Origin: Sulfurimonas sp. RIFCSPLOWO2_12_36_12 | Lineage (GTDB): Bacteria > Campylobacterota > Campylobacteria > Campylobacterales > Sulfurimonadaceae | Reading direction: 5' to 3' | NCBI GenBank assembly: GCA_001829675.1 | Contig: MIBZ01000026.1 | Location: 1 to 64,000, forward strand | Length of the DNA stretch: 64,000 nt | Notes under the pieces: model-generated | Told to the model about the DNA's origin: nothing | Seen by the model: only the letters and a program-made list of their open reading frames with translations | Database searches by the model: none | Position numbers and translations under genes: made by a program | Part shown: in pieces, positions 28,880-56,863 of the stretch | How positions within the stretch are numbered: position 1 is the stretch's first letter | How the letters are laid out: each line of letters opens with the position of its first letter

Positions 28880-28895
28880 CAGCTTTATGTCCGGT
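28880..28895 (-). promoter_or_regulatory. Family A motif, site a (GACATAAAGCTG type)
   Basis: Minus-strand reading ACCGGACATAAAGCTG. It lies between the 97-aa gene (57 bases away, same orientation) and the divergent WYL regulator gene. Confidence 0.75.
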
Positions 28896-29010
28896 CGTAA
28901 AACATCTAAAGAACCAGACGCAATAATGTCAGATTTAGTGTTATACTTAGCGCCAAACAGTTTTATTTATTGAAAATGCGCGACAAAACATCCAAAGATA
29001 AGGGCTATTG

Positions 29011-31976: not shown

Positions 31977-31994
31977 GACAGCTTTATGTCCGGT
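31977..31994 (-). promoter_or_regulatory. Family A motif, site d
   Basis: Minus-strand ACCGGACATAAAGCTGTC, 46 bases before the FtsZ-like GTG and in the same orientation. TATAAT lies shortly downstream, so the motif would sit near -35. Confidence 0.75.
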
Positions 31995-33269: not shown

Positions 33270-33286
33270 CCAGACATAAAGCTGTC
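33270..33286 (+). promoter_or_regulatory. Family A motif, site e
   Basis: CCAGACATAAAGCTGTC, 15 bases after the Fic stop and 49 before the next ATG. Confidence 0.8.
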
Positions 33287-33334: not shown

Positions 33335-33648
33335 ATGCCTCAACTTCTATACACAATCGATGAGTACATAGCTACAAAAAGAAAGAGACTAATTTTCCGG
33401 ATGTTGAACTTTTAGAAGTGTTTGATTTGGTGAGTGCCGAATATATTGAGTATCCATATTTAGGCTGCATCGCTATTGATACTGATGTCGGAAGTGATGC
33501 ATATATTGCTCTTAGTCAAAAATATGGAAATCCTTATGATGATGCTACGATTAACAATAAAGTATTGTGGATAATGGAATACGACGATGCAAAAAAAATG
33601 TATGATAAAAAACAAAAACTACTAGAGGCAGAGTTTGGTGATGAGTAG
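33335..33648 (+). pseudogene. Frameshifted, internally deleted relative of the 144-aa protein at 44923-45357
   Basis: The ATG reading gives MPQLLYTIDEYIATKRKR then runs to a stop. The other frame gives FPDVELLEVFDLVSAEYIEY, then PYLGCIAIDT, then ending in KVLWIMEYDDAKKMYDKKQK. Both parts line up with the 144-aa protein (MPRALKTIEQYITQDRK; then MPHVKLTDVFDYVSPSWELW, PFLGTIAIDV, VVYIMSYENAKRRFEKRE). About 55 residues are missing between them, and the frame changes. It was probably the first gene of a related cassette. Confidence 0.8.
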
Positions 33649-37827: not shown

Positions 37828-39299
37828 CCCTCTCCAAATCCCAATACATCAGAGCACTGCAATGCTACAAATCTATCTGGCTTCATAAACACGCTCCAGA
37901 GCTTAGAACAAAGCCAAACAAGCAGCAGGAGTCGCTTTTTAACACTGGCTATCAGGTGGGTGACTATGCAAAAGAGCTCTTTTTGGGTGGTGTTGAGGTG
38001 GAGTTTGACGCCGATGATTTTGGCGGTATGGCGGCTAAGACAAAAGAGCTTATCGCACTTAAAACACCGGTGATTTACGAGGCGACATTTAAAGAGAAAA
38101 ACATATTTGCCATGGCGGATATTTTGGTGCTAAATGATAACGGTTTTTATGACATCTATGAAGTAAAAGCGAGTACGGAAGTCAAGGAGTATCATCTGAA
38201 TGATGCCGCTATTCAGTATTATGCGCTTAGCGGTGCCATAAATATTGGCAGGGTTTACATTGTTCATATCAACAACAAGTACATCAAAAATGGCGAGATA
38301 ATCCCGCATGAGCTATTTAGCATAACCGATGTTACCGATGAGGCAAAAAAGAGGCAGTGCAAAATAGATGACACTTTGGCTGAGATAGAGAGCGTTCTTG
38401 ATGGAGATATGCCAAATATTGACATTGGTGCGCACTGCTCCAATCCCAACGAATGCGACTTTCAAAACCACTGCTGGGCGCATGTGCCGAAAATCTCCAT
38501 CTTTAATCTCTACCGCATTAACGGCAGCAAAAAGTTTGAACTCTACAAAAACAAGGTGCTTCTGCTTGATGATATTCCCGATGATTTTAAACTCACATCG
38601 ACGCAAAAGCTTCAAGTCGGTACGCTAAAAAGCGGCGAAGTGCATATAGACAAAGCGGTTATTGAGAGATTTATCCAAAAAGTTTCATATCCTATAAACT
38701 ACTTTGACTTTGAGACTTTTCAAAATCCAATCCCGCGCTTTGATGGACAAAGACCGTATATGCAGATACCGTTTCAATACTCCCTGCATATAGAAAATGA
38801 AAATGGCGAAATTCTTCATAAAGAGTTTTTGGGAGATGAGAACAGCGACCCAAGAGAAGCTCTGATAAAACAGATGCTTAGAGACATCACCCCGCACGGG
38901 AGCATAATGGCGTATAACCAATCGTTTGAGATTTCACGCATCAAAGAGCTTACTTTGGCATTTCCTGCATATCATGATGAACTTATGGCGCTTGTTCCTC
39001 GTTTTGTGGATTTGATAGAGCCATTCCGCGGACTTGGCTACTATCATCCGGCTTTTAACGGCAGTTTTTCCATAAAGTCTGTTCTTCCTGCCATGTTTGC
39101 AAATGACCCTGAACTTGACTATAAAAAGCTCGGAAGTGTTCAAAACGGAGGCGACGCGATGGATGTTTTTGCAAATCTTTATCTCTTAAGAGACAAATCA
39201 AAACGAGAAGAGATAAGAGCGGATTTACTTGCATACTGCAAGCTTGACACTTTGGCGATGGTTAGGGTTTTTGAAAAATTAAAAGGAATTGTTTTATAA
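37824..39299 (+). CDS. DUF2779 protein: Cas4-like nuclease fused to DEDD exonuclease
   Basis: 491 aa. The N-terminal half is PD-(D/E)XK-like (AMADILVLN; YDIYEVKAS) with a Cas4-type cysteine set (C near residue 13, then CSNPNECDFQNHC). The C-terminal half is a DnaQ/RNase D-like 3'-5' exonuclease with DEDD residues (NYFDFETF, MAYNQSFEISR, LAYCKLDTLAM). Base composition is much higher in GC than the DUF262 genes, so it may be an older resident joined by an AT-rich pair. Defence DNA processing is inferred. Confidence 0.82.
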   Translation: MTLSKSQYIRALQCYKSIWLHKHAPELRTKPNKQQESLFNTGYQVGDYAKELFLGGVEVEFDADDFGGMAAKTKELIALKTPVIYEATFKEKNIFAMADILVLNDNGFYDIYEVKASTEVKEYHLNDAAIQYYALSGAINIGRVYIVHINNKYIKNGEIIPHELFSITDVTDEAKKRQCKIDDTLAEIESVLDGDMPNIDIGAHCSNPNECDFQNHCWAHVPKISIFNLYRINGSKKFELYKNKVLLLDDIPDDFKLTSTQKLQVGTLKSGEVHIDKAVIERFIQKVSYPINYFDFETFQNPIPRFDGQRPYMQIPFQYSLHIENENGEILHKEFLGDENSDPREALIKQMLRDITPHGSIMAYNQSFEISRIKELTLAFPAYHDELMALVPRFVDLIEPFRGLGYYHPAFNGSFSIKSVLPAMFANDPELDYKKLGSVQNGGDAMDVFANLYLLRDKSKREEIRADLLAYCKLDTLAMVRVFEKLKGIVL

Positions 39300-39309: not shown

Positions 39310-39326
39310 CCAGACATAAAGCTGTC
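39310..39326 (+). promoter_or_regulatory. Family A motif, site f
   Basis: CCAGACATAAAGCTGTC, 10 bases after the DUF2779 stop and 48 before the LRR2 ATG. TATACT follows 17 bases after CATAAA, so CATAAA could stand as a -35. Confidence 0.8.
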
Positions 39327-39373: not shown

Positions 39374-39865
39374 ATGATTAAAAAATATACAAAATTAAAA
39401 GTGCTTCTTTCTTGGGCTGACGAACAACAACTCTCAGCGGAGACTTTTCCTCGTAATCTTGATAAACTGCTATCTCTAAGTGAGCTAAATTTGCACGCAA
39501 TAGGGCTTAGTTTTATTCCCTCTGAAATAGGTGTATTGCAAAATCTTAAAAAACTCTATTTGTCAGATAACAATTTAGTTTCACTTCCAGATGAAATTTG
39601 TGATTTGAAAAAATTAGAAATTTTATGGATACAAAACAATAAAATCAAAGCACTACCGGATGAAATATCAAGCCTATTGCTGCTTGAAGATTTGATAGCA
39701 TTTGATAACAGACTTGAAGCTCTACCAAAATCAATAGCAAATATGCCAAGTTTAAAAGCACTGTTTTTACATAACAATTGCCTAAATTCAGCATTTATAG
39801 AGAGTGAGTTTGAATCCATTAAAAACACTCTTGATTATTTTAGTACACACGATCAAAATAGTTAA
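39374..39865 (+). CDS. Leucine-rich-repeat protein (LRR2)
   Basis: 163 aa, nearly all LRR: units near IPSEIGVLQNLKKLYLSDN, LPDEICDLKKLEILWIQNN, LPDEISSLLLLEDLIAFDN and LPKSIANMPSLKALFLHNN. No signal peptide. It is 20 bases upstream of the sirtuin gene, and the pair probably works together. Shorter than LRR1 and lacking its N-terminal region. Confidence 0.85.
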   Translation: MIKKYTKLKVLLSWADEQQLSAETFPRNLDKLLSLSELNLHAIGLSFIPSEIGVLQNLKKLYLSDNNLVSLPDEICDLKKLEILWIQNNKIKALPDEISSLLLLEDLIAFDNRLEALPKSIANMPSLKALFLHNNCLNSAFIESEFESIKNTLDYFSTHDQNS

Positions 39866-39885: not shown

Positions 39886-40725
39886 ATGTTTAAATATGAA
39901 GATATTGTTGAAAATATAGAAAAAGCAAAAGAGATAGTCCAAGAAGCAACCGCAATTCTTATAACCGCCGGTGCGGGGATGGGAGTGGATAGCGGGTTGC
40001 CGGATTTTCGCGGTAATGAGGGGTTTTGGAAGTCATATCCGCCTATGAAAAAACTTAATATCTCTTTTTCTCAAATGGCAAATCCTAAGTGGTTTAAAGA
40101 AAATCCTGCTTTTGCGTGGGGATTTTATGGACATAGACTAAATCTATACAGAAAAACAGTTCCGCATAATGGATTTAAAATATTATTGGATTTAGTCCAG
40201 TCAAAAAAAGACGGCTATTTTATTTTTACCTCCAATGTAGATGGACAGTTTCAAAAAGCCCTCTTTGATGAGAGCAAAATAGTTGAGTGCCACGGGTCTA
40301 TCCATCATAATCAGTGTTTAGCGAGATGCCCTCAAGATGTCTGGTGTAATAAAGATGAGATAGTAGAGATAGATGAAGATAATTTTCTGGCAAAAGAGCC
40401 GCTTCCAAAATGCCCAAACTGTGGCTCACTCGCTAGACCAAATATATTGATGTTTGGTGATTTTGGCTGGAATTTTAGCAGGAGTGATGAACAAGATATG
40501 CGATTTAGAAAATGGCTAAAAGAGATAAGAAAAAACAGTGCCAAACTATGCATCATTGAGATAGGCGCAGGGGAGGCGATAGCAACAGTAAGAATGATGA
40601 GTGAACATATTGCAAAAATGTATAACGGCAAACTTATAAGGCTCAATCCAAATGACTACAAAGTGGACTACAAACACATTGGACTGCCTCTTGGAGGACT
40701 TGAGGGGATAACGAAGATATGTTAG
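39886..40725 (+). CDS. Sirtuin (Sir2-family NAD-dependent deacylase)
   Basis: 279 aa. NAD site ITAGAGMGVDSGLPDFRGN; TSNVDGQF; catalytic His in ECHGSIHHN; Zn cysteines CLARC and CPNC. The full set suggests an active deacylase; some Sir2 defence proteins instead destroy NAD. Position next to an LRR gene, in an island and behind site f, suggests a defence role, which is inference. Confidence 0.9.
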   Translation: MFKYEDIVENIEKAKEIVQEATAILITAGAGMGVDSGLPDFRGNEGFWKSYPPMKKLNISFSQMANPKWFKENPAFAWGFYGHRLNLYRKTVPHNGFKILLDLVQSKKDGYFIFTSNVDGQFQKALFDESKIVECHGSIHHNQCLARCPQDVWCNKDEIVEIDEDNFLAKEPLPKCPNCGSLARPNILMFGDFGWNFSRSDEQDMRFRKWLKEIRKNSAKLCIIEIGAGEAIATVRMMSEHIAKMYNGKLIRLNPNDYKVDYKHIGLPLGGLEGITKIC

Positions 40726-40733: not shown

Positions 40734-40877
40734 TTATAGAGTTGTCAAAAACAGATCCACACTCTGTATCTCCACGCCCTCAGCTCTCTCATTTACATCA
40801 TAAGTGATAAGCGTAAAACCCCTATAAACTTCTTGATTTAGCCAATGCTGGCTGTCTTCTAATAGAATTGAATCCAT
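40734..40877 (-). CDS. 47-aa protein downstream of WYL2
   Basis: I chose the ATG at 40877 because AAGGA lies 6 bases upstream; a longer reading to 40967 overlaps the WYL2 stop. No family recognised (YRGFTLITYDVNERAEGVEI). It may be a coupled small product or a remnant. Confidence 0.45.
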   Translation of the reverse strand: MDSILLEDSQHWLNQEVYRGFTLITYDVNERAEGVEIQSVDLFLTTL

Positions 40878-40963
40878 TTTATTTCCTTGTATATGGAATG
40901 TATTCCTTATATCATAAAATATTTGGATAATACAATCTATATTTTGATGTACATCTAACCATA

Positions 40964-41899
40964 TCATTTTGGCAAATATTCTAAGAGCATCTTCTCAAAT
41001 TCTTTTTGTATTTCTTCCGGCTCTATAACTCGGATTGAGGGCATCCAGTATTTCAGGAGTGGATAAATCTCATCATCACTCGTTACTTTTAGCACCATCT
41101 CAGCACTGCCGTCTGGCTTTTTGTAGAGCTTTTGATTTTTAGAGATGGGTTTGCGCTCAAAATAAACCACAACACTTGCATCCACCCACAATATAACCTC
41201 GTAAGGCTTGGCACTGGTTGAAAACCATACATTGATGGAATTTTCCAGCCGCTCAATTATTTCAGGATTGTGCTTAAAAGGCGTATCACTGATTTCACAA
41301 CTGCTTATGGATTTGATATAAAACTTTTTAGTATAGTTGTTGTGTTGTGCAAGCAGATACCAAAATCCCTCGTAAACAATTACCTTAATCGGTCGAACAT
41401 TGGTGTACTTTTTTGGTTTTTTTTCACCATAAGGGGTGTAGGAGATGCTTACTTCATGCTTTTGATTGATTGCTTTTTCAAGATGCATAACAATGTCAAA
41501 TTTATTCCCTATGTCTTCAACATCTAAGCGTGTGTAATATGGGGATTTAATCTGGCGTTGCAGCCTCTCTAGGAGCGGATGAGCTTTTTTATAAAAATCA
41601 ACTCCTATGTCTTTTGCCATGCTCTCAAGCATCTCCAAAACCATCTCGCCGTCATTTTGGGCATATCTGCTCATGGGTTTACGGTAGCGTTTTTTATCTT
41701 CTCCACGCTCTATTCGTCCGGGATACATCTGCTTTAGTTTGTCAAAATCACGCTGAATGGTTTTAGAATCAACACCCCACTCTCGTGAGAGTTCACTGAT
41801 GGAAAGCTCTTCACCATTCTCAAGCCGCTCCAGTATCTCGGCATGGCGTTTGTGCTGAAGGGGGTTACCGCGTGTTCCGTAATCGGCTAAGATTGCCAT
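40964..41899 (-). CDS. WYL-domain transcriptional regulator (second)
   Basis: 311 aa. N-terminal winged HTH (GEELSISELSREWGVDSKTI), WYL domain about 140-215 (YTPYGEKKPKKYTNVRPIKV; FWYLLAQ) and a WCX-like end. Same architecture as the WYL protein at 29 kb, with the TIQRDF helix shared. Family B site 41944-41958 lies 45 bases upstream of its ATG, pointing to autoregulation, and matching sites control the 144/239-aa pair and the sigma-like/AAA+ divergon. Confidence 0.92.
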   Translation of the reverse strand: MAILADYGTRGNPLQHKRHAEILERLENGEELSISELSREWGVDSKTIQRDFDKLKQMYPGRIERGEDKKRYRKPMSRYAQNDGEMVLEMLESMAKDIGVDFYKKAHPLLERLQRQIKSPYYTRLDVEDIGNKFDIVMHLEKAINQKHEVSISYTPYGEKKPKKYTNVRPIKVIVYEGFWYLLAQHNNYTKKFYIKSISSCEISDTPFKHNPEIIERLENSINVWFSTSAKPYEVILWVDASVVVYFERKPISKNQKLYKKPDGSAEMVLKVTSDDEIYPLLKYWMPSIRVIEPEEIQKEFEKMLLEYLPK

Positions 41900-41943
41900 G
41901 GTGCCTCTTTGTTGAATATGTTGGGTTATTATAGCGGGTTGAG

Positions 41944-41958
41944 GGACAAATTGTGTCT
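41944..41958. promoter_or_regulatory. Family B operator, site 1 (GGACA-N5-TGTCT)
   Basis: GGACAAATTGTGTCT, in the divergent region between WYL2 and the PD-(D/E)XK gene. Extra half-sites (GTGTACTGTCAC) follow at once. Confidence 0.75.
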
Positions 41959-42017
41959 GTGTACTGTCACTAATTTTAGAGTATACTGCGTGACACTAAA
42001 AGATCAGGAATATCAAT

Positions 42018-42656
42018 ATGGAAAAAGCTCTTAATGCATTTAATACAATGTCTGCAAAATATGAAAAAATATTTTCAACTGGATTTTATCCAGCTCGTCA
42101 AAGTACAGGATTTACTGAACAAAATTTAGTACATAGTTATGTAAATGCACTTATTAAAACACTAGGTGATGATTCCTTTGAATGGCTTGAATTCCCATGG
42201 AAAGACAATAAACAACATATTGATGCCATAGTAATTTCTGAAAAAAATAATTCTATATATTATATTGAAGCTAAAAGGCTTTCTGTAGGTCAAATAAAAT
42301 TTTGGAGTTTAAGTAAAGATATAGGACGAATTAAAGAGGGATATGAAGATAAAGATAAGCATTGTCGCGACATAAAAGATGAACATAAAATGGATATTTC
42401 ACAATATAAACATATCATTGTTGCTTTAGCCGATATATGGATTGAAAAGGATTTTACAAAAAATATTTTTAACGCATGGAAAGGTGAGGAAAAATTATTA
42501 CAAAAATTTGAGGATCATCAACATCTCTCAAGTCTTTTAAAAAATAGATCAGCCTGTTTACATAAAGACTTCCAAGAAGACTATTTTTCCATAAATGAGA
42601 AAGCCGACAAGAGAATTAAAAACTATAAACTATTGATTGCAGTAGAGACTCTTTAG
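42018..42656 (+). CDS. PD-(D/E)XK-like nuclease protein
   Basis: 212 aa. Core HIDAIVISEKNNSIYYIEAKRL gives D and E-x-K spaced as in restriction-like nucleases; the rest is helical. No helicase or methylase is next to it. It diverges from WYL2 and shares its control region, so it is probably under the same operator. Target unknown. Confidence 0.7.
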   Translation: MEKALNAFNTMSAKYEKIFSTGFYPARQSTGFTEQNLVHSYVNALIKTLGDDSFEWLEFPWKDNKQHIDAIVISEKNNSIYYIEAKRLSVGQIKFWSLSKDIGRIKEGYEDKDKHCRDIKDEHKMDISQYKHIIVALADIWIEKDFTKNIFNAWKGEEKLLQKFEDHQHLSSLLKNRSACLHKDFQEDYFSINEKADKRIKNYKLLIAVETL

Positions 42657-42901
42657 GCTTATCAATCCCTAGCTGTGTAGGCGATGTTCCCATCATGCCT
42701 ACACCAAAGAAGTATTTTTTTTAAATTTTCAATAAAAGTCTAAGCGCATACCTAGACAAACTCAGTCCATTTTTTGAGTTACCATGCTGATGCTCTATTT
42801 ATTTGGACAAGAATTGGTATGACTTCATCACATCATCCATCATACAAAGTCCTAATCAAAGAAGAGCTTATTGCCCTTTACTTCTCAGATAGGGTAGCGA
42901 A
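42657..42901. other. Intergenic stretch with gene-like debris
   Basis: Short open stretches appear in several frames (for example SAYLDKLSPFFELPC and ALFIWTRIGMTSSHHPSYK) but none is long, has a clear start or matches a family I know. Likely a decayed gene. No repeat, tRNA or strong promoter seen. Confidence 0.35.
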
Positions 42902-44092
42902 TCAATATAAAAACCCAAAAAGCCAAAGGGGAATTTTGTTGCCGCTGCCTATTTCTATCTCATCTGAAACTATGTAGCTGTCTGGCAAGTCTTTGATTTG
43001 CTTATATTTTTTGTTTTTACCGCCAACTTCAAAGGTGTACTCTTCATCTATTAAAAAATCACCTCTTTTTGGAATTGAAACCTCATGGGCAGTTTTTAGC
43101 ATAGTCGCAAAAAATGTCTCTCGTATGGTGCCTATCTCAAAGCCATTGCAGTATGCGTAGTGTAAGTTTGTATTATTGAGGTATATTTTTTCCGGTTTTG
43201 TAAAGATGCCATCACCCTTTGATTTTGCACTGACTACATTTAAAACTTTTGCTTTATGAAGATAATCTAAAAATCTATAAAGCCTTTTGTAGTCATCTTT
43301 CATATCCATTTTTAAAAGTAACTCTTTGATATTTGGTGTATATGGCAGTGACTCGCATACCAATCTTACAAGCTTTTTGAGATTGACGATGTTTGAGTAT
43401 TCTATGGGAAAAACTGATGGAATATCCACCTCTATAACAGTGTTTATGGTCTCATTTAGTCTTAAAAGATAACTCTCTTTGTCCTCAAAGTAAAAAGGAT
43501 AATACCCATTTTGAATATACTCTTTATATGAGAGTCTGAGATTGAATTTTGTAAGCAGCTCATAGGCTATGTCGATGTGATTTGAAAGTATCTCTTGTAA
43601 GCTATATGATGGAAGAGCGATATTGTCGTTTAGTTCTATAAACTCTCTAAAACTCAACCCCTCAAAATGATAAACTATAGCTCTTCTGCTTAAATCAGCT
43701 TTTGCGTTGTCAATTTGCAATGCACTTGAGCCGCTAAATATCACTTTTATATCTAAGATGTCATATATCTTTTTTAGCTCTATTTCAAAGTTTTTATATT
43801 TGTGTATTTCATCTATGATGAGTATCTTGCCGTCCTCTTTTGCAAAAACTTCAGCTACTTCATAAAGAGACGGTATGTTGATAGTGTCCGCACTGATATA
43901 TAACTTTTGACTAAAAGGAAGATCTAGTTCTTTTAGATATTGTACTAAAAAAGTAGTTTTACCTACTCCTCTTGCGCCAACTATTCCTATAAGTTTTGGA
44001 TTGAAATTTATTTTGTTATAAAAATATCTTTTGTAGCTAAAGTTGTGTTTGGCAAATATTTTTCTTTGATAATCCCGTATTTCATCTAGCAT
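42902..44092 (-). CDS. AAA ATPase with DUF4143-type C-terminus
   Basis: 396 aa. P-loop GARGVGKTT and Walker B ILIIDEIHKYKNFE at the start (about 37 and 92), sensor ASN/GSS (VIFSGSSALQID), then the DUF4143 C-terminal region with an (E/D)xx...VGGK-like end (YTFEVGGKNKKYKQIKD). Families of this kind are common beside defence and toxin genes; role unclear. A distant relative is at 54035-55294. Confidence 0.85.
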   Translation of the reverse strand: MLDEIRDYQRKIFAKHNFSYKRYFYNKINFNPKLIGIVGARGVGKTTFLVQYLKELDLPFSQKLYISADTINIPSLYEVAEVFAKEDGKILIIDEIHKYKNFEIELKKIYDILDIKVIFSGSSALQIDNAKADLSRRAIVYHFEGLSFREFIELNDNIALPSYSLQEILSNHIDIAYELLTKFNLRLSYKEYIQNGYYPFYFEDKESYLLRLNETINTVIEVDIPSVFPIEYSNIVNLKKLVRLVCESLPYTPNIKELLLKMDMKDDYKRLYRFLDYLHKAKVLNVVSAKSKGDGIFTKPEKIYLNNTNLHYAYCNGFEIGTIRETFFATMLKTAHEVSIPKRGDFLIDEEYTFEVGGKNKKYKQIKDLPDSYIVSDEIEIGSGNKIPLWLFGFLY

Positions 44093-44206
44093 TTAGCCAC
44101 TCCTGCTGTAAATTTTTGAAATATTATAGCAAAATTAAATATGAAAACCTAATATTATGTATTTATTTTATATTTTTATATCCACTTATACATCATTACT
44201 GGCATC

Positions 44207-44926
44207 TCAATCCTCGATATAGTCTTTCAACCGATTTTTTTGAGTCCAAACATATCTTCTTTTCTCCTCGATTAATTTTCCCTCTTGAAAGGTGTATTCC
44301 CATCCGTTGAGATCCTCTTCGTCTTGTGCTCGTCGGTCGTATGCGACAATTACCCCGCTGAACCAGTCGGCTTTTACCTGTGTTGTATCATCAGGGTAAA
44401 AAAGACGAATATTCCTAACTCTCACACGCGCTTCATCAAGCTCTTTTTTCAACTCATCTAGTTTTTTCGGTGACATCTTGCGTGGAATAGGCACCACTTC
44501 AGGTTCATCCATTTTTCGATAGATTTCCTCTATAAGAGATTTAATTCTTTTTTTCTTTTCTTCTGATGTTAAATTTTCTTCTACTTCTTCACGATTCACC
44601 TCACTCAGTGCTCTTTCTTCTTGAGCTTTGGCAATCTCTTGAACTCTCTCCTGGGTTAAATCGTAAATCGGTTCCATACTAAATATCTGTGCGGTCTTAT
44701 GTAGTCTCATCGATCGGCTACGAAATGTTGTCAGGTATAGTTCTCTATCAATAATCGTCCATTCACATGTGTATCCTCGCCAATTTCCTGAATGAAATTC
44801 TAATGCTCCACCTCCAAAATATTGCAATAACTGACGGTCTTTTAGTACCTCATGTAAAGGAGAATCACTCACGATTGCTTGATTCGATTGTTTATGGATT
44901 AATCTGTCTTTCATTTGCATGGTCAT
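44207..44926 (-). CDS. Unknown protein, family X copy 1 (239 aa)
   Basis: No known family. It shares with the 222-aa protein at 46809-47453 the patterns WRGYTCEWTIIDRELYL, RLHKTAQIF..PI and WFSGVIVAYDR...EEDLNG. Central coiled-coil-like segment (about 95-165) rich in E, K and R. It ends a gene pair with the 144-aa protein (overlap 4 bases) behind family B site 2. A third, truncated copy of its N-terminus occurs at 46699-46779. Confidence 0.75.
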   Translation of the reverse strand: MTMQMKDRLIHKQSNQAIVSDSPLHEVLKDRQLLQYFGGGALEFHSGNWRGYTCEWTIIDRELYLTTFRSRSMRLHKTAQIFSMEPIYDLTQERVQEIAKAQEERALSEVNREEVEENLTSEEKKKRIKSLIEEIYRKMDEPEVVPIPRKMSPKKLDELKKELDEARVRVRNIRLFYPDDTTQVKADWFSGVIVAYDRRAQDEEDLNGWEYTFQEGKLIEEKRRYVWTQKNRLKDYIED

Positions 44927-45357
44927 ACTAATTCTTCTCGTTTTTCAAAGCGTCGTTTTGCATTTTCATACGACATTATATATACTACTGCATCCAAAGA
45001 AATAGGTTCACCGGTTTCATCTTCATATCGTCTATTAAGGACATCCTCTTCAGGACCACCTGCCTCAACATCAATCGCAATCGTTCCCAAAAATGGCCAT
45101 AATTCCCACGATGGAGAAACATAATCAAAAACATCCGTAAGTTTTACATGCGGCATTTCTTGAGTCATAAATTGGATAAATTCTTCTCGCTTCTTCCAAT
45201 TTACATTCTCTTTATCAAGCCAATGTTCTCGCTCTTCTTCGCTCATATCCATTCTTAAAAAAGCCTTGGCATAAGTAGGACTAAACCCTATAAAAATAGT
45301 ATCTTTTTTACGATCTTGCGTGATGTATTGTTCGATTGTTTTTAAAGCTCGTGGCAT
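44923..45357 (-). CDS. Unknown 144-aa protein
   Basis: I start it at the ATG at 45357 because AGGAG lies just upstream. No known family. Main conserved parts, shared with the broken copy at 33335-33648: MPRALKTIEQYIT, then DVFDYVSPSWELWPFLGTIA, then VVYIMSYENAKRRFEKRE. First gene of the pair behind family B site 2, overlapping the 239-aa gene by 4 bases. Confidence 0.8.
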   Translation of the reverse strand: MPRALKTIEQYITQDRKKDTIFIGFSPTYAKAFLRMDMSEEEREHWLDKENVNWKKREEFIQFMTQEMPHVKLTDVFDYVSPSWELWPFLGTIAIDVEAGGPEEDVLNRRYEDETGEPISLDAVVYIMSYENAKRRFEKREELV

Positions 45358-45402
45358 TTGCTCTCCTTGTAGATGAATCTCCATTATTATAAAGTTTTAT
45401 AT

Positions 45403-45417
45403 GGACAAAATATGTCT
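45403..45417. promoter_or_regulatory. Family B operator, site 2
   Basis: GGACAAAATATGTCT, 46 bases before the 144-aa ATG. It splits the beta-helix operon end from this pair, so the pair has its own controlled promoter. Confidence 0.75.
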
Positions 45418-45436
45418 ATCTGATGTTCTCTGACGT

Positions 45437-46702
45437 TTATATTTGAGATAGTTCAAATTTTTGCTCCATCAGATGAGATTCAAACAAAATATACTTTGGA
45501 ACGGTTCGAGATGTATTTATTTTGTTTTCAAATGTACATCGATCTATCAGCGAATTTCCGCTAGCATAGAGGTGATTGGCACTCATTTCATCTAACTTTA
45601 CAGCTGTTATCGTATTGTTTTTGAAAAGGCATCTGCTCATCGTTGTGTGACGAATTCTTGCACCGCCACCCGTTTCACCCGCATTGCATTTTACAAATTT
45701 GCAACGCTCGATTTCTACCCTACTGATAGCAAACGAACACACTCCGCCACCCTCTTTTTTGGCACGGCACTTGTAGAAGATTGAATCCTCCAATATTGAT
45801 CCCCCTTCAAGTGCAGCACCTCCACCCTTACGGGATCGGCATTGACGAAAAACAAGTTGTTCACCTATAATCTCACCACTGATGCCTCCACCGCCAAGAG
45901 TAGAGAGACATTTGATAAAATTGCAATTATAAACACGGCTTGGACTATGTGTGGCGATACCCCCGCCTGTCCGTGCACGACACATTTTAAAGAGACACTG
46001 TTTTATTGTTACAGAGTCATCACAAAGAATTGCTCCTCCTTCATCCCCTGCTCTACATGACTCAAATAAACATTGTTTGATTGTGGAATATCCTTTTAGG
46101 ATAACGGCTCCCCCATCCGTTCCCGCTCGACAACGCTTGAAACCGCACTCCTCTATCTGAACATTAAATGTAGCAACTATCGCGCCACCATCTTCTTGCA
46201 CATTGCAATCTTGAAAAACACACCCTTTAACCAAGGAGTTCAATGTGATAAGCGCTCCTCCAATAGTCTTTTTATAGGCTTCGCTTCGCTCTTCTTGCGA
46301 CCACTCTTCAGTCCACTCCTCAACGATTTCCAAATCATCGATCTCTCCAAAATAGCGACTAATAAAGTGATCTTTAAATTCACCTAGTGGACGCCCTCTT
46401 CCGCCGATAAATGTACATCCTATGAACGATGAACGTCCCTTTCCAATGTCAGCTATACCTTTCCACCCTGTTGTGCCTCTAATTTTACTCCATTGCGGTT
46501 GGCTTGTATCTACTGGAATAAAGGTGCAGTTTTGGGCAATTATCTTCCCAAGACAAAACAACCCAGCATCAGGTACAAATCTCAATATACAATTTTTAAA
46601 AATAAGAGTTTCGTTTTTTTCGACGACTAAGTCTCCTAAGATACTGGCTTCACCATCGCTCCACTCCTTAATATTTCCATTTTTATGGTGTAAAATAGTC
46701 AT
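45437..46702 (-). CDS. Cysteine-rich right-handed beta-helix repeat protein
   Basis: 421 aa. About nine repeats with the rhythm xCxFxxCxAxxGGG (for example EECGFKRCRAGTDGGAV, KQCLFESCRAGDEGGAI, YNCNFIKCLSTLGGGG) of a parallel beta-helix. N-terminal NGNIKEWSDGEASILGDLVV caps it. No signal peptide or sorting tail is seen, so despite likeness to polymorphic surface proteins it is likely cytoplasmic. ATGA links it to the truncated upstream ORF. It may act as a rigid scaffold or DNA mimic; inference only. Confidence 0.82.
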   Translation of the reverse strand: MTILHHKNGNIKEWSDGEASILGDLVVEKNETLIFKNCILRFVPDAGLFCLGKIIAQNCTFIPVDTSQPQWSKIRGTTGWKGIADIGKGRSSFIGCTFIGGRGRPLGEFKDHFISRYFGEIDDLEIVEEWTEEWSQEERSEAYKKTIGGALITLNSLVKGCVFQDCNVQEDGGAIVATFNVQIEECGFKRCRAGTDGGAVILKGYSTIKQCLFESCRAGDEGGAILCDDSVTIKQCLFKMCRARTGGGIATHSPSRVYNCNFIKCLSTLGGGGISGEIIGEQLVFRQCRSRKGGGAALEGGSILEDSIFYKCRAKKEGGGVCSFAISRVEIERCKFVKCNAGETGGGARIRHTTMSRCLFKNNTITAVKLDEMSANHLYASGNSLIDRCTFENKINTSRTVPKYILFESHLMEQKFELSQI

Positions 46703-46779
46703 TTAAATAGAGGAGAACCACTCACTACTGTTTGATTCGATTGTCGGTAAATCAATCTGTCTTTTTTTTGCGTACACAT
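46699..46779 (-). pseudogene. 26-codon N-terminal fragment of family X
   Basis: Reads MCTQKKDRLIYRQSNQTVVS (then GSPLFK), matching the first 27 residues of the 239-aa protein (MTMQMKDRLIHKQSNQAIVS). It has strong AGGAG and ends in an ATGA overlap with the beta-helix start. A decayed third copy, or a short leader that couples translation of the beta-helix gene. Confidence 0.75.
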
Positions 46780-46808
46780 AAACTACTCCTGCTATATTTT
46801 TTTGACTC

Positions 46809-47453
46809 TTAAATATTTGATCTCTTAATATGCTGCGGAATTTTCTCACTCAATATCCCTTGCTCAATCCGATACGAGCATCCGTTTAAATCTTCGTCAT
46901 TGTCTGGAAATCTATTGTAGGCAACTAAATTGCCACTAAACCACTTAGCAAATACATGGGTAGTGTCTTCTGAAAAATTACAATTATCCCTCTCATCATC
47001 TTTAGGCAGTGGAGTTTTTTGCATTGCTATGTAGTATAGCTTATTAAGCAGTTCAACGATTTGCTTTCGCTCACTGTTTTTTAACAATATTTTTCTCCGA
47101 GTTTCCAAGTCCATCAATTCTACAGCTGACTTCATCTCAACACTAATCTGCATTTTTCCCGTATAAGGTTCTATGGGCATTTCACCAAACAACTGTGCAG
47201 TTTTATACAATCGCTGTGCGGTGCTTTTAAAAGAGACAAGATAGAGTTTTTTATCTATTATTTCCCATGAACACCTATACCCTCTGATATCTCCAAATCC
47301 AAAAGGAATAATTGAAAAATACTGCATTAAATCATTAATTTTCAAATATTCAGTCAAGGGCGATAGATTTGAACTTCCATCTTCATATTGTGTCCACAAC
47401 AGCATGAATTTTTCATCACCGTCAATTAGTTTGTCTCTGATAAATTTGCTCAT
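46809..47453 (-). CDS. Unknown protein, family X copy 2 (214-222 aa)
   Basis: Start at 47453 (AGGAG just upstream; a longer reading to 47477 overlaps the previous gene). Paralogue of the 239-aa protein: IRGYRCSWEIIDKKLYLVSF, RLYKTAQLFGEMPIEP, WFSGNLVAYNR...NDEDLNG. Lacks most of the central charged helix. Lies 1 base after the 178-aa gene. Confidence 0.75.
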   Translation of the reverse strand: MSKFIRDKLIDGDEKFMLLWTQYEDGSSNLSPLTEYLKINDLMQYFSIIPFGFGDIRGYRCSWEIIDKKLYLVSFKSTAQRLYKTAQLFGEMPIEPYTGKMQISVEMKSAVELMDLETRRKILLKNSERKQIVELLNKLYYIAMQKTPLPKDDERDNCNFSEDTTHVFAKWFSGNLVAYNRFPDNDEDLNGCSYRIEQGILSEKIPQHIKRSNI

Positions 47454-47454
47454 T

Positions 47455-47991
47455 TTAGACTCCTGAAATCGATGCAAACGAATTTATTTTGTCATGCCAC
47501 TCTTTTGTACATTTGACACCCACTTCTATGCGAATACCAAGCTTCTTTGAGATACTTTGAAGCGCCTGTAAAAATGTTATATCTGTAGGAGAGTTAACCA
47601 CAAATCTCTCTATAAACGCATAGTCAATATAAAGAGCGTATGCTGAAATATCCTCATAGGCGTACTCTTTACGGATTTGTGAAGGAGTAGCCGGCTCAAT
47701 TGCTCCAAAATATTTTATCATAGAGCGATTTATTTTTTCTAAATCACATTTTAGTAGTTTAAAATGGCAATATTTTTCAAAATCAACCCCCTCATGCGCA
47801 GAACACAGAAGCGATAACTGTTCTCCTTGAGTGCGGTGTGATGAGATAAAAAAGCCTTTATCCGTGTCTAATAATGATGCAGCTTTTGTATAAATAGCTT
47901 TTGTAAGTGCTTCATCTTTTTCTGAGCAGTAGACTAAAAATGTGCTTTTGACTATTTTAAGCTTTTCTCCTTTTTTAATGAGAGTTTTCAT
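47455..47991 (-). CDS. Unknown 178-aa protein
   Basis: Start at 47991, overlapping the stop of the sigma-like gene (ATGA). No family recognised. Mixed alpha/beta: FLVYCSEKDEALTKAIY, then GEQLSLLCSAHEGVDFEKYC, then ALYIDYAFIERFVV. Four to five cysteines. No signal peptide. Second gene of the divergon operon. Confidence 0.75.
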   Translation of the reverse strand: MKTLIKKGEKLKIVKSTFLVYCSEKDEALTKAIYTKAASLLDTDKGFFISSHRTQGEQLSLLCSAHEGVDFEKYCHFKLLKCDLEKINRSMIKYFGAIEPATPSQIRKEYAYEDISAYALYIDYAFIERFVVNSPTDITFLQALQSISKKLGIRIEVGVKCTKEWHDKINSFASISGV

Positions 47992-48191
47992 GAAATAGCC
48001 TTTTGTGTAGAATCGTTTATATAGCGCACTGAATCGATAATATTTTCCCACTCTGCTCTTAGCTTTGGTTGTTTTAGTTTCTTTAGTGCCTGCATCTCTA
48101 TCTGTCTGGCGCGTTCTCTGGTAACACCCAGCAGTTTAGCTACTTCTTGAAGTGTGTATGTATCTCCGGAAAATGATGATGTATTTGACAT
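47988..48191 (-). CDS. Sigma-70 region 4-like mini-protein
   Basis: 67 aa; YTLQEVAKLLGVTRERARQI followed by EMQALKKLKQP is the sigma-4.2 helix-turn-helix as in RpoD, without regions 1-3. It may steer RNA polymerase at specific -35 elements or act as an anti-activator. First gene of the minus operon; AGGAG precedes the ATG. Family B site 3 lies 46 bases upstream. Confidence 0.85.
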   Translation of the reverse strand: MSNTSSFSGDTYTLQEVAKLLGVTRERARQIEMQALKKLKQPKLRAEWENIIDSVRYINDSTQKAIS

Positions 48192-48236
48192 GATAAACTC
48201 CTAATATTTTGATAATGACAGTCTAACAATACAAAT

Positions 48237-48251
48237 GGACATTTGTTGTCT
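48237..48251. promoter_or_regulatory. Family B operator, site 3 (divergent)
   Basis: GGACATTTGTTGTCT between the sigma-like gene (minus) and the AAA+ gene (plus); 46 bases from each start (48191 and 48298), so one site can control both. Confidence 0.78.
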
Positions 48252-48297
48252 ATATCTTACCTTATACTTCTACCTACAAACAACACAGGAGTTTAAG

Positions 48298-50400
48298 ATG
48301 AGAAAAAAAACTAGCGGTATTGACAATCTTATAACATACAAAAAAACAGACTTTATAGACGCTGACTTAATAGATAAAGCTTCTTTATGGATACTTCGTA
48401 TTCTTTTAAATCTTGGCGGACATCGTGAATTTTTAGATAAAAATAACTATTTTTCAAAAGAAAATATTCTTCATTTTTTAGGACTTGGCAAATATGCTCC
48501 TATGCATAATGATGAATATACGAGAAATGAAATTATTGATCTTCTTAAAAATCAACTTGTTTTACTTGAGAAAAAAAATAAATTTACCACTTCAAAAATA
48601 TTGGCTAAAAACATAAAACAGCTCTCAAGCCTCATGCAATTCAACTCTTATGAAGAGCAGATTTTAGAGTTTGTTGTACTGGTAAAGCAGTATGAAATTC
48701 TTGATGATGCAGTTAGCTTAATTGGGAATAACTTAAATAGTTCTCAGGCAAAAAAAGCTCTAAGTGTTATCTTAAATATCCCAAGAGCTGGAGTAGAAAG
48801 AGCATTTTTGAGTGATTCTAAATTTATTAAATCTTCACTTATTACCATTGAGAAGAATCATACAACTAGTTTAGATAGAAAATTTGATACGCTAAACAAC
48901 TCATTTTTAGACAATATGCTTAATCTTAGCGGAGATATAACGGAAGTATTTAAAGACTCTCTAAAAGTATGCGGCAAAAGCATTCTTGCCCTTAGTGACT
49001 ATGACCATGTGAGCAAAGATTTAGAAATTTTACTCCCGTATCTAAAAAATGCACTCCAAACCAAACAATATGGAGTAAATATTTTACTTTACGGACTTCC
49101 CGGAACAGGTAAAACAGAGCTTGCAAAAGTACTCTCAAGTGAGCTGGGAGCAGAACTTTTTGAGGTGAGTTATACAAACATGGAAGATGAACCAATAGAC
49201 GGTTCTGAGAGAGTAAAAGCATATAAAAGTGCACAATCTCTTCTTAGTAATAAAAATACACTTCTTATATACGATGAAGCCGAAGATATATTTGAGAGTA
49301 GTTTTAGCCTCTTTATGCCGCAAAGACAAAAAGATAAGGCATGGATAAACAAAACGCTGGAGACAAATACGATACCGACCATCTGGATAACAAACAATAT
49401 TGACAGCATAGATAATGCAATAGTGAGAAGATTTGATTTAAGTATTGAACTGCCGATTCCTTCTAAATCAAAAAGAGAGGAGATTGTAAAAAACCATAGC
49501 AACAATCTTCTTGATGCCAAGAGCATAAAACTTTTTGCTGAACATGAAAACATTGCACCGGCAGTTATCACAAGAGCGTTAAAAGTTGTGCAGAACATCG
49601 GCAAAAACAGCTCAAAAGAGGCGTTTGCGCATATAATAAACAACACGCTAAAAGCGCAAGGATACAGAGAGATAAAAAAAGAAAACAACTCCGTAAGCTC
49701 AAATATTTACAATCCAGACTTTGTAAACACGACAACAGATTTGAGCGCCTTAGCATCCGGAATCAAGCAAACAGGCAGTGCAAGATTGTGTCTTTATGGG
49801 GCTGCCGGAACAGGAAAAAGTGCTTTTGGAAAATATATAGCCGATGTTTTAGATAAACCGCTTTTGCTTAAAAAAGGAAGCGATTTGATGAGCAAATGGC
49901 TTGGTGAAACTGAAAAAAATATAGCAAACGCTTTTAGAGAAGCAGAAGAAGAAAATGCAGTTTTACTCTTTGATGAAGTTGATAGTTTTTTAGGCAGTAG
50001 AGAAAACGCAAAAGCTTCTTGGGAGATAACACAGGTTAATGAGATGCTTGTGCAGATGGAAAACTTTAACGGCGTTTTTATCGCTACAACAAACCTTATG
50101 GATAATCTTGACCGTGCTAGTTTGAGAAGGTTTGATCTAAAACTTGAGTTTGGATATCTAAAGCCAGAACAAGCTTGGAATATGTTCTTGCTTTATGCAA
50201 AAGAGCTGAAATTTTCAAAACCGACGCAAAGTTTTAAAACCAGCGTAAGCGGTTTACGAGACTTGACCCCCGGAGATTTTGCCGCAGTTGTGAGGCAAAA
50301 CAGATTTAGACCAATTAAAGATATAAAAGATTTCATATCAAGGCTTCAAGATGAGATTGCCGTTAAAAACATAAGCACAAACAAGATGGGGTTTTTATGA
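48298..50400 (+). CDS. Double AAA+ ATPase
   Basis: 700 aa from the ATG at 48298 (AGGAG upstream). First AAA+: Walker A YGLPGTGKTELAK (about 264), Walker B LLIYDEAEDIF. Second: Walker A YGAAGTGKSAFGK (about 500), Walker B LLFDEVDSFLG, sensor ATTNLMDNLDRASLRRFDL with arginine finger. N-terminal 240 residues helical and unknown. Resembles Cdc48/central-type AAA+ unfoldases. Likely the motor of the WYL2 regulon. ATGA couples it to a 19-aa ORF. Confidence 0.9.
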   Translation: MRKKTSGIDNLITYKKTDFIDADLIDKASLWILRILLNLGGHREFLDKNNYFSKENILHFLGLGKYAPMHNDEYTRNEIIDLLKNQLVLLEKKNKFTTSKILAKNIKQLSSLMQFNSYEEQILEFVVLVKQYEILDDAVSLIGNNLNSSQAKKALSVILNIPRAGVERAFLSDSKFIKSSLITIEKNHTTSLDRKFDTLNNSFLDNMLNLSGDITEVFKDSLKVCGKSILALSDYDHVSKDLEILLPYLKNALQTKQYGVNILLYGLPGTGKTELAKVLSSELGAELFEVSYTNMEDEPIDGSERVKAYKSAQSLLSNKNTLLIYDEAEDIFESSFSLFMPQRQKDKAWINKTLETNTIPTIWITNNIDSIDNAIVRRFDLSIELPIPSKSKREEIVKNHSNNLLDAKSIKLFAEHENIAPAVITRALKVVQNIGKNSSKEAFAHIINNTLKAQGYREIKKENNSVSSNIYNPDFVNTTTDLSALASGIKQTGSARLCLYGAAGTGKSAFGKYIADVLDKPLLLKKGSDLMSKWLGETEKNIANAFREAEEENAVLLFDEVDSFLGSRENAKASWEITQVNEMLVQMENFNGVFIATTNLMDNLDRASLRRFDLKLEFGYLKPEQAWNMFLLYAKELKFSKPTQSFKTSVSGLRDLTPGDFAAVVRQNRFRPIKDIKDFISRLQDEIAVKNISTNKMGFL

Positions 50401-50456
50401 TGAAAAAAACGAGAGGCAAAAAAAGAGTTAGATGGAACAACAAGACACAACTATGA
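50397..50456 (+). CDS. 19-aa basic micro-ORF coupled to AAA+ gene
   Basis: MMKKTRGKKRVRWNNKTQL, overlapping the AAA+ stop as ATGA. Too short for a family call; the run of basic residues is notable. It overlaps another micro-ORF at its end. Could be decay. Confidence 0.35.
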   Translation: MMKKTRGKKRVRWNNKTQL

Positions 50457-50515
50457 TAAAAATTTTGTTATGTAAGAGCTGCTCAACCGCAATGGAAATG
50501 CCTCTTGTGTTTTAA
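50453..50515 (+). CDS. 20-aa micro-ORF with CxxC
   Basis: MIKILLCKSCSTAMEMPLVF, overlapping the previous micro-ORF stop as ATGA. CKSC hints at a metal knuckle but it is probably the stub of a lost gene. Confidence 0.3.
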   Translation: MIKILLCKSCSTAMEMPLVF

Positions 50516-50702: not shown

Positions 50703-51986
50703 ATGCAAAATGAAATTATTACAGTAAAAGACTTGCTAGAAAAAAAAGAATTAAAAATTCCAGAATATCAGAGACCTTATAAATGGACGATTAAAAATGT
50801 AAGTCAACTAATAGATGATATTCTGCACTTTAGTGATAAAAAAGCTTATAGGCTTGGAACAGTCGTGTTACATAAGGATGAAAATGATACAAAAATTAAT
50901 ATTGTAGATGGTCAACAAAGAACAATCACATTATTTTTGCTTGTACTGGCTGTACAAAATGATAAAAAACTTAAAGATATGATAAAAAATAATTTTTCAA
51001 TTAATTGGGAATTCTCAAATCCAATTTCGCAATATAATATTCAAAATAACTACAATGAGATAGTGCGAAGATTAAAAGATTTTGATGAGCAAAAAATCAA
51101 CTTTTTATTGAATCATTGTGAAGTTGTTACAGTTACACTAAAAAGCATTACAGAATCGTTTCAATTTTTTGATTCACAAAATGCAAGAGGCAAAGATCTT
51201 GAGCCCCATGATTTATTAAAAGCATATCATCTCCGAGAGATGCGAGATATTTCTGAAGAGGAAAAAATCGATACTATAGATTCTTGGGAAGATATTGATT
51301 CAGATGAATTAGCAGTACTTTTTAACAACTATCTCTTTCGCATTAGAAATTGGAGTAAGGGTAAAAACGCAAGATTTTTTACTAAAAAAGATGTAGAAGT
51401 TTTTAAAGGAATAAACCCAAATAATAAGCAATATCCTTATGGGAATTTATATAAAATCGCACATCACTACATTGACTCGTATAATAGTGATTATCATAGA
51501 AAAATTGATTTGCAGTACTTAGATTATCCTTTCCAAATAGATCAAAATATAATTAACGGAAAAAGATTTTTTGAGCTTGTTGCATATTATTTTCACAAAA
51601 AAAAGGGTAGTTTTGAAGAAAATGAAATTATTAAATTAATTGATACATATGATGGAAAAAATCGCACGGGTGATAAATATGTTCGAAATCTTTTTGATTG
51701 TGCAGTACTTTATTATAGAGATAAATTTGGAGATATTGAAATAACAAAAGCGATAGAAAAGATTTTTATATGGGCATACAAACTAAGACTAACTCAACAT
51801 TCTGTCCAAATTGCTTCAATGGATAACTATGCACTTGAAACAAAACTTTTTACATTTATTCGAGAAGCAACCTCGCATAAAGAAATAGTAAATATGAGTA
51901 TCAATAGTCTTGAAAACATAAATATAGTTTCTACAAAAACTAAAAAATTAGAAGAAAAGTTCGAGGAGATGGGATATGCAAAATAA
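50703..51986 (+). CDS. DUF262 protein (GmrS-like), second system
   Basis: 427 aa. DUF262 start (IPEYQRPYKWT) and core NIVDGQQRTITLFLLVLAV (R-T-I-T in place of R-L-T-T). No DUF1524. Overlaps the DUF262-DUF1524 gene by 11 bases. TGAGGA upstream of the ATG. Confidence 0.87.
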   Translation: MQNEIITVKDLLEKKELKIPEYQRPYKWTIKNVSQLIDDILHFSDKKAYRLGTVVLHKDENDTKINIVDGQQRTITLFLLVLAVQNDKKLKDMIKNNFSINWEFSNPISQYNIQNNYNEIVRRLKDFDEQKINFLLNHCEVVTVTLKSITESFQFFDSQNARGKDLEPHDLLKAYHLREMRDISEEEKIDTIDSWEDIDSDELAVLFNNYLFRIRNWSKGKNARFFTKKDVEVFKGINPNNKQYPYGNLYKIAHHYIDSYNSDYHRKIDLQYLDYPFQIDQNIINGKRFFELVAYYFHKKKGSFEENEIIKLIDTYDGKNRTGDKYVRNLFDCAVLYYRDKFGDIEITKAIEKIFIWAYKLRLTQHSVQIASMDNYALETKLFTFIREATSHKEIVNMSINSLENINIVSTKTKKLEEKFEEMGYAK

Positions 51987-56856: not shown

Positions 56857-56863
56857 AGCTGTC
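56847..56863 (+). promoter_or_regulatory. Family A motif, site h
   Basis: CCAGACATAAAGCTGTC; TAA is the hipA stop. 59 bases before the 5'-nucleotidase ATG, same orientation. Confidence 0.8.

Follow-up and report, generated by a model that had tools for sequence, protein, structure and literature searches.

A promoter class shared by variable gene cassettes in a Sulfurimonas genomic island, probably read by two DriD-like WYL regulators

Among the described WYL regulators, the one that appears closest to those considered here is DriD of Caulobacter crescentus. DriD sites follow the consensus ATACGAC-N7-GTCGTAT, which includes a GAC-N7-GTC core. They overlap the -35 element, and their spacing to the -10 element, which is weak and has a conserved G at -14, is constant, DriD serving to anchor polymerase (PMC12340889). 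We analyzed a 64,000-nucleotide (nt) stretch of Sulfurimonas sp. RIFCSPLOWO2_12_36_12 (contig MIBZ01000026.1, positions 1 to 64,000; hereafter the window) that contains an island with two WYL genes, WYL1 and WYL2, a gene for a tandem AAA+ ATPase and a variable set of other genes. The island promoters belong to one class, GACA-N5/6-TGTC followed after about 12 bases by a -10 box, with the repeat about 60 bases before the start codon. Upstream of the tandem AAA+ gene, this promoter class shows conservation in Campylobacterota, Betaproteobacteria and Gammaproteobacteria, and dozens of other genes in islands of this kind are also preceded by it. The island is probably a set of independently promoted cassettes that have this promoter in common and are read by two DriD-type WYL factors.

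The tandem AAA+ gene is patchily distributed, occurring at E<=1e-45 in 24 of the 298 genomes of the order (host included) and on 17 plasmid records from Beta-, Gamma- and other proteobacteria; a scan of genome contigs, covering the best 80 of 350 relatives, added further loci. Of 98 AAA+ matches, 94 were taken after four near-duplicates were dropped, and the 91 with a long enough upstream region were searched from -160 to +60 of the AAA+ start. The exact repeat was present upstream of 29 of 49 close relatives (at least 700 bits), five of 14 intermediate relatives and two of 28 distant relatives (below 580 bits), and allowing one mismatch raised the count among close relatives to 42 of 49. By comparison, the best of 255 other palindromes was found upstream of eight of the 49 close relatives, with a mean of 0.49; an earlier, smaller run gave 19 of 27 with the repeat versus five for the next best palindrome. 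The gap between half-sites mattered as well: upstream of the 49 close relatives a gap of 5 occurred 14 times, a gap of 6 occurred 15 times and a gap of 0 once, while gaps of 1-4 and 7-12 yielded zero repeats.

The repeat also occupies a constant place relative to genes. Across 31 Campylobacterota loci (541,680 bases), picked via relatives of the AAA+ protein or of a 144-amino-acid (aa) island protein, a called start follows 65 of 88 exact repeats at a distance of 52-70 nt, whereas other palindromes in the same loci averaged 0.54, with a maximum for AAAA (15 of 519). Gene starts were those of a simple open reading frame (ORF) caller, which failed on some GC-rich loci. Among the 75 distinct promoter sites located 45-75 nt from a start, 36 of 50 Campylobacterota promoters have the -10 pattern nAnnnT at a spacing of 12 downstream of TGTC (runner-up spacing 14, with 18), as do 14 of 25 promoters from other groups (nine at spacing 11 and eight at spacing 14). 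A -35 box matching TTGACA in at least four of six positions was found in at most one of the 50 Campylobacterota promoters and in none of the other 25 at any single spacing from 15 to 19. The non-Campylobacterota promoters are poor in their -10 boxes as well (mean match 2.76 of 6). A fixed distance to the -10 box and the lack of a good -35 box are therefore both found in the island promoters. Finally, operators are more alike within a locus than between loci (1.84, the highest of 500 shuffles being 1.45).

In the window, the operators and the genes around them are arranged as follows, with operators named by their spacer (N5 or N6).

28530..28823, minus strand: 97-aa ORF below a one-mismatch N6 site
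28878..28892, minus strand: N6 operator with one mismatch (GGACATAAAGCTGCC)
28917..28930, plus strand: N6 operator of WYL1, one mismatch, TATACT -10 box at spacing 11
29011..29931, plus strand: WYL1, WYL regulator with helix DRTIQRDFNE
31170..31931, minus strand: FtsZ-like pseudo-GTPase with the FtsZ C-terminal domain (Pfam FtsZ_C 5.7e-15), without the GTP-binding T4 loop motif
31977..31990, minus strand: exact N6 operator
33273..33286, plus strand: exact N6 operator
33335..33648, plus strand: decayed paralogue of the 144-aa gene, two short ORFs
33743..37827, plus strand: two GmrSD_N (DUF262) genes
37824..39299, plus strand: DUF2779 protein, with weak Cas4 and RNase H-like matches
39313..39326, plus strand: exact N6 operator with TATACT -10 box
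39374..39865, plus strand: leucine-rich-repeat (LRR) protein, first gene downstream of the 39313 site
39886..40725, plus strand: Sir2-family protein (Pfam SIR2 6.3e-21)
40964..41899, minus strand: WYL2, helix-turn-helix (HTH)-WYL-WCX regulator with helix SKTIQRDFDK (Pfam WYL, WCX and HTH)
41944..41958, minus strand: N5 operator of WYL2, TATAAT -10 box at spacing 11
42902-44092: AAA_14 ATPase inside the island
44207..44926, minus strand: 239-aa protein, paralogue of the 214-aa protein
44923..45357, minus strand: 144-aa protein
45403..45417, minus strand: N5 operator, TATAAT -10 box at spacing 12
45437..46702, minus strand: Cys-rich beta-helix-like repeat protein, no significant Pfam family
46699..46779, minus strand: third, truncated member of the 239/214-aa family, with a stop that overlaps the start codon of the beta-helix ORF
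46809..47453, minus strand: 214-aa protein, paralogue of the 239-aa protein
47455..47991, minus strand: 178-aa protein
47988..48191, minus strand: stand-alone sigma-70 region 4 mini-protein (Pfam 1.6e-11)
48237..48251, unstranded: N5 operator between the sigma-4 and AAA+ genes
48298..50400, plus strand: p97/NVL-like tandem AAA+ ATPase; its helical N-terminal domain is apparently distinct
50703..53886, plus strand: GmrSD_N/DUF7834 and GmrSD_N/GmrSD_C gene pair adjoining the regulon
54035-55294: AAA_14 ATPase beside the island (DUF4143 is present in one of the two AAA_14 ATPases)
56850..56863, plus strand: exact N6 operator
56922..57842, plus strand: 5'-nucleotidase family protein below the 56850 site (Pfam PF06189 6e-123)

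An earlier note on positions 40734-50515, made from the sequence alone, had reported three GGACA-N5-TGTCT sites near start codons. A motif scan of the window returned exact copies at 41944, 45403 and 48237, at spacings of 44-46 bases: 44 for WYL2 (start 41899), 45 for the 144-aa ORF (start taken as 45357), 45 for the sigma-4-like gene (start 48191) and 46 for the AAA+ gene (start taken as 48298). The genes that it had described, among them the paralogues, the truncated copy, the sigma-70 region 4 protein and the tandem AAA+ protein, are present. The segment that it had delimited does lie inside the regulon but is too narrow, since the regulon extends over about 28.5-57.8 kb and has a second operator class and a second WYL gene.

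Taken alone, the number of GGACA-N5-TGTCT sites in the window is not impressive (five with one mismatch allowed versus 2.2 expected, a count reached by eight of 100 shuffles); what makes them significant is how they cluster, where they lie in promoters and that they are conserved. The host genome contains five exact copies, three of which fall within 6.3 kb, and the remaining two (window 7681 and contig C8:10528) are inside ORFs. In the 2.18-Mb genome there are 34 occurrences of the broader core GACA-N5/6-TGTC and 26 of a backward control pattern; seven of the cores fall within 31977-56863 and 27 elsewhere, the latter being background. At the outside density, the probability of at least seven cores in 24.9 kb is 4e-8 for this interval, which was picked post hoc with the sites already seen. 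All four genomic copies of the exact N6 form RGACATAAAGMTGTC lie in the window (31977, 33272, 39312 and 56849). A core with a TATAMT box 8-15 bases downstream is found at five places genome-wide, four of them in the window, while the backward control with the same box gave no match in the host genome. If one-mismatch sites followed by a -10-like box are counted, the regulon also takes in WYL1 (28917) and the 97-aa ORF (28878). A chance origin of the sites was ruled out by the conservation upstream of the AAA+ gene, the promoter placement, the genome-wide counts and the P value; the Markov control of the window scan consisted of six simulated windows only, and the palindrome and genome-wide controls were relied on instead. 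Two imperfect sites were also noted in the window. One, a one-mismatch N5 site with a poor -10 box at 42754-42768 (minus strand), has no evident gene at promoter distance and is possibly the remnant of a lost cassette; the other is a two-mismatch N6-like site at 53963, by the second AAA_14 ATPase gene (54035-55294).

The window holds two sub-regulons, one in which WYL1 goes with N6 sites and another in which WYL2 goes with N5 sites. Near WYL1, N6 sites precede WYL1 itself, the FtsZ-like gene, the decayed 144-aa paralogue and the LRR-Sir2 genes, and farther away the 5'-nucleotidase gene; near WYL2, N5 sites precede WYL2, the 144/239-aa pair, the sigma-4 operon and the AAA+ gene. Since the 144-aa family has an intact gene below an N5 site and a decayed gene below an N6 site, site class follows the neighborhood and not the gene. 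With two WYL paralogues and separate operators in one island, regulator specificity is directly testable.

A profile of 18 linked WYL proteins had as its first PDB match 8tp8, the structure of C. crescentus DriD (5.8e-24, positions 6-330 of 336), followed by four 'WYL domain-containing protein' chains (9pfq also over its full length) and PafBC (2.8e-21); WYL2 as a single query found no PDB relative. With the same profile, CapW (2.1e-6) and BrxR (8.5e-4) matched in the WYL part only. A further 'WYL domain-containing protein', 7qfz, which we take to be BrxR of Escherichia fergusonii, matched at 2e-7. Judged by these profile matches, the linked WYL proteins are more similar to DriD than to BrxR or CapW, and the regulators have a winged HTH-WYL-WCX architecture related to DriD over its full length. 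The island operators contain the DriD core, GAC-N7-GTC, with one extra base in N6 sites.

There is good indirect evidence that the island WYL proteins bind the repeats, because a lysine or arginine in the recognition helix varies together with an operator base. In the 33 loci, out of 85, that had a promoter-placed site and a single parsed helix type, lysine before the TIQRD helix is paired with a GGACA half-site in 12 of 13 loci, compared with five of 20 for arginine (Fisher 2.3e-4). A strict spacer code, with N5 sites only for lysine-type WYL proteins, was rejected, as 13 of 31 sites in lysine loci and two of 33 in arginine loci are N5 and as locus L047 has both spacers. An orthologue of WYL2 with 71% identity, from another genus of the family, adjoins a relative of the 144-aa gene with an N5 site (GGACATAATATGTCT) nearby. 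The suggestion of the earlier note that the sites form a regulon with WYL2 as its most likely regulator is thus strengthened by this orthologue and by the helix-operator co-variation. When the tally is limited to the 59 of 94 loci that have 5-kb flanks on each side, the AAA+ gene has a WYL gene no more than 5 kb away in 21 of 34 close, four of seven intermediate and three of 18 distant loci. One further WYL gene of the host (C18:967-1844) has an exact GACA-N5-TGTC just past the matched region.

Under the model that we favor, each cassette carries GACA-N5/6-TGTC over the place of the -35 element, about 12 bases and a -10 box, with its gene about 60 bases from the repeat. WYL1 would read N6 AGACA/GGACA..TGTC sites and WYL2 would read N5 GGACA..TGTCT sites. 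A nucleic-acid ligand of damage or infection, single-stranded DNA (ssDNA) in the case of DriD, would probably switch each WYL protein, which would then anchor RNA polymerase on the -35-less promoters and turn all cassettes on together. The tandem AAA+ protein is the commonest member, and the remainder would be interchangeable stress or defense cargo. That the WYL proteins activate rather than repress can be inferred with moderate confidence. Damage or phage would be the presumed trigger, the ligand and the defensive purpose being likewise presumed, and an antiphage function of the island is plausible.

Several observations weigh against reading by DriD-type activators. The basic motif of DriD, RSWRLDRM, reads KKYYLKNI or KKFYIKSI in WYL1, WYL2 and their Campylobacterota relatives, and ssDNA therefore may not be the ligand. 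The didA and driD -10 hexamers are weak, so that the 12-base match to DriD rests on taking the G at -14, and the bapE site was not recovered by consensus scoring of the printed DriD promoters. The co-variation counts include no phylogenetic correction, and the helix of locus L214 was mis-parsed and counts against the correlation. In a set anchored on WYL genes (60 regions covering 62 of the 103 WYL matches listed, plus L177), one or more promoter-placed exact sites occur in only 24 of 61 loci, 22 of these being among the 59 loci without an AAA+ gene; in two of the 61 (L216 and L249) the WYL gene was not recovered by the gene caller. This test is weak alone, as other palindromes average 1.3 and AT-rich ones reach 21. 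No WYL gene was detected within 5 kb in 13 of the 34 close AAA+ loci, and the host genome has two more WYL genes outside the island. Finally, the Campylobacterota -10 boxes are fairly good, near consensus, which makes a repressor on a -35-independent promoter possible.

The earlier note compared the WYL proteins with BrxR and CapW, which repress defense operons. On a reading of this kind, the repeat would cover the -35 region and keep cassettes off until a phage signal arrives. The palindromes of BrxR and CapW lie in or near defense promoters (over -35 for Acinetobacter BrxR, over -10 for CapW and just downstream of the promoter for E. fergusonii BrxR), and some islands include known defense genes (McrBC and GmrSD-like genes, and BREX genes adjoining one plasmid island). 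However, sequence similarity and full-length coverage favor DriD, as does the repeat core; the -10 distance and promoter layout are consistent with DriD, and the poor -35 and -10 boxes of non-Campylobacterota promoters suit an activator. We therefore regard repression as unlikely and the BrxR/CapW comparison as probably the wrong model. No less doubtful is a reading in which the WYL proteins sense ADP-ribose or cyclic-ended RNA and the islands are regulons for repair of modified RNA or protein rather than for DNA damage. The altered ligand motif would agree with it, as would the cargo (RtcB, ADP-ribosylglycohydrolase, SpoU methylase, a cyclic-phosphate receiver and Sir2, with a macro-domain gene nearby) and the predicted WYL-controlled ADP-ribosylglycohydrolase systems (PMC9503650), but the FtsZ-like, GmrSD, AAA+ and LRR cargo has no evident role of this kind, and ssDNA is what DriD and PafBC bind, the nearest relatives among WYL proteins with a known ligand.

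The single WYL2-controlled antiphage system with a fixed gene set that the earlier note had proposed, in which the AAA+, sigma-4, 178-aa, 214/239-aa, 144-aa and beta-helix proteins would cooperate, is very unlikely. Its members do have an operator class and WYL2 in common, and the 144-aa family recurs in other islands with sites, once beside the WYL2 orthologue. Nevertheless, a search of the 297 other genomes of the order yielded no relative of the 178-aa protein, which is thus confined to the host among 298. The 239-aa protein, at E<=1e-4, matches only its window paralogue (with a weak relative in one other island), and AAA+ islands elsewhere carry other cargo. It is at least as improbable, and in our judgment slightly more so, that the repeats belong to another regulator and the island WYL genes are bystanders. 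The AAA+ loci with no WYL gene detected nearby would fit such an arrangement, which is at odds with the helix-operator co-variation, with the sites upstream of the WYL genes themselves and with the occurrence of the same core in DriD sites.

The AAA+ gene is the commonest constant part of the islands, the rest of the cargo being variable. Its protein has a predicted structure (mean predicted local distance difference test score, pLDDT, 86) with two AAA domains of the p97/NVL type. Residues 229-693 match p97, NVL and Rix7 (7lmz_A: Z 20.1, root mean square deviation [rmsd] 7.4, 433 aligned; 9bji_E: Z 19.4, rmsd 5.8, 443 aligned), and the key residues of Walker A and the acidic Walker B are invariant in both domains across a 36-sequence alignment. 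The natural reading is that of a putative protein-unfolding motor. The N-terminal 235 residues form a confident helical model that, searched alone, gave no Foldseek match at E<=0.001, which is no evidence of a new fold, and only weak winged-helix-like matches (Z up to 6.7). The second AAA domain is close to PADLOC IetA (3.5e-43), while the NCBIfam score is 121 bits versus a cut-off of 510. The IetA ATPase works with a subtilase partner, IetS; no subtilase is among the ten proteins of 40.7-50.4 kb that were scanned. In three other places, a one-AAA ATPase of about 547 aa replaces the tandem protein below a like site (L173:14262-15905, L175:6727-8364 and L146:12523-14160). A truncated AAA+ copy of 113 aa with an exact operator (L036:607-1010) lies about 3.6 kb from an intact AAA+ gene with its own operator and looks like a cassette duplication left decaying.

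Directly below exact sites, 93 genes were found in 39 of 60 AAA+ loci (the near-duplicates L046, L048, L049 and L077 omitted), 33 of them AAA+ genes. Pfam searches of 30 chosen cargo proteins, including the FtsZ-like protein and 5'-nucleotidase of the window, left five without a family at E<=0.01. Below sites or in their operons, this sample contained FtsZ-like, McrBC, RtcB, 5'-nucleotidase, ADP-ribosylglycohydrolase, SpoU methylase, calcineurin-like phosphatase, PcfJ-like, peptidyl-arginine-deiminase-like, Fic and histone-deacetylase-like proteins, with an HNH match below the cut-off. Further cargo comprises sigma-70 region 4 alone (window, L034 and L099), a sigma-54 DNA-binding domain (L043), an IF2 N-terminal domain (L035), the cyclic-phosphate receiver domain and the one-AAA ATPase. 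DUF2779 was found in 15 of the 60 AAA+ loci, Sir2-type proteins in 12 and FtsZ-like proteins in six. The 239- and 214-aa paralogues are 39% identical. The 144-aa protein has matches in eight other genomes of the order, two of them weak, and one plasmid record; plasmid searches gave no match for the 239-aa protein and only weak repeat matches in Methanosphaera for the beta-helix protein. Against PADLOC, the ten proteins of 40.7-50.4 kb matched WYL, IetA/TRIP13/DolB-like AAA and sigma-factor (MzaA) models, with weak others, and no complete system. In another scan, seven of ten window proteins matched, including GmrSD-like, Fic, 5'-nucleotidase and AAA_14 ATPase models and a weak DUF2779-Cas4 match, and no PADLOC match was found for the Sir2 protein, the second GmrSD gene or the FtsZ-like protein. 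The Aliarcobacter cibarius plasmid pACIB (L146:5865-14493) has six exact operators in 9 kb, together with a pair of closely spaced WYL genes, a SLOG protein, a 144-aa relative and a cyclic-phosphate receiver protein.

Of the 23 listed FtsZ-like ORFs, some of which come from overlapping loci and several of which are C-terminal fragments, 22 lack a strict GGGTGTG-type loop, with L117 and L222 keeping the near form GGATGTG. An upstream site is present for seven of the 23 (six distinct), among them the ORF of the window. DriD controls the division inhibitor gene didA (PMC4211646, PMC12340889), and an FtsZ-like division brake would fit a DriD-like regulon. In Rhodoferax-type islands, FtsZ-like proteins (L054:7652-8761; L097:5174-5923 and 7985-8674; L117:8469-9512) have a twin-arginine-like leader (M-RR-F) at the N terminus, which is unusual in a relative of cytoskeletal proteins.

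The joint proposition that the islands are an exchangeable 'regulon in a box' and that part of their cargo consists of machinery mimics, decoys or brakes is a speculative one, which we rate somewhat below either of the two doubtful alternatives above. If true, a gene gaining the 60-base promoter tag would join the local damage response. The mimics would be sigma-70 region 4, the sigma-54 DNA-binding domain, the IF2 N-terminal domain and the FtsZ-like proteins, most of which lack a canonical GTP-binding loop. They could decoy phage inhibitors of those targets or brake division or normal transcription. Phages target sigma region 4 and FtsZ. A free sigma-4 protein could also shift polymerase from -35-dependent promoters to the -35-less ones of the island.

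Defense and stress islands are usually sorted by their effector genes, whereas the stable feature here is the switch: from Campylobacterota to Gammaproteobacteria, unrelated genes are tagged with promoters of a single architecture, which DriD-like WYL proteins apparently read. The repeat, 12 bases, a -10 box and 60 bases to the start provide a search handle for unknown defense and repair genes. No description of an operator-tagged island of this kind was found in the literature searched, which included few subscription papers.

The known systems each share part of this arrangement. Cdc48/p97, NVL and IetA have the tandem AAA+ fold, IetA being close in the second AAA domain, while the N-terminal domain of the window protein is apparently its own and no subtilase is among the ten proteins scanned. 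In the WYL-controlled ADP-ribosylglycohydrolase systems (PMC9503650), a WYL factor accompanies ADP-ribose and phosphatase genes and the whole is thought to be antiphage; these are predicted gene neighborhoods under a repressor, and the accessible text describes no common operator. BrxR and CapW (PMC9122601, PMC9122589, PMC9122588) are also WYL regulators of defense loci, and E. fergusonii BrxR has two boxes in one island, but they are repressors, BrxR half-sites are 10-11 bp and the alignment is confined to the WYL part. The mycobacterial regulators PafBC and SiwR (PMC11804915, PMC6789036, PMC10693628) are ssDNA-sensing WYL activators with a promoter position of -26; PafBC is a heterodimer with a non-palindromic site, and control of an island is not described for either in the accessible text. 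The DriD regulon (PMC12340889) comes closest, as a WYL activator of the same architecture acts through a GAC-N7-GTC core. The repeat covers the -35 region there too, and its distance to a weak -10 element is constant, 12 bases in didA and driD if the G at -14 is taken. The DriD promoters named in the accessible text, however, belong to a few host genes (didA, bapE, recJ, dnaG and its own), whereas the island has variable cassettes, N5 and N6 spacers and changed flanking bases.

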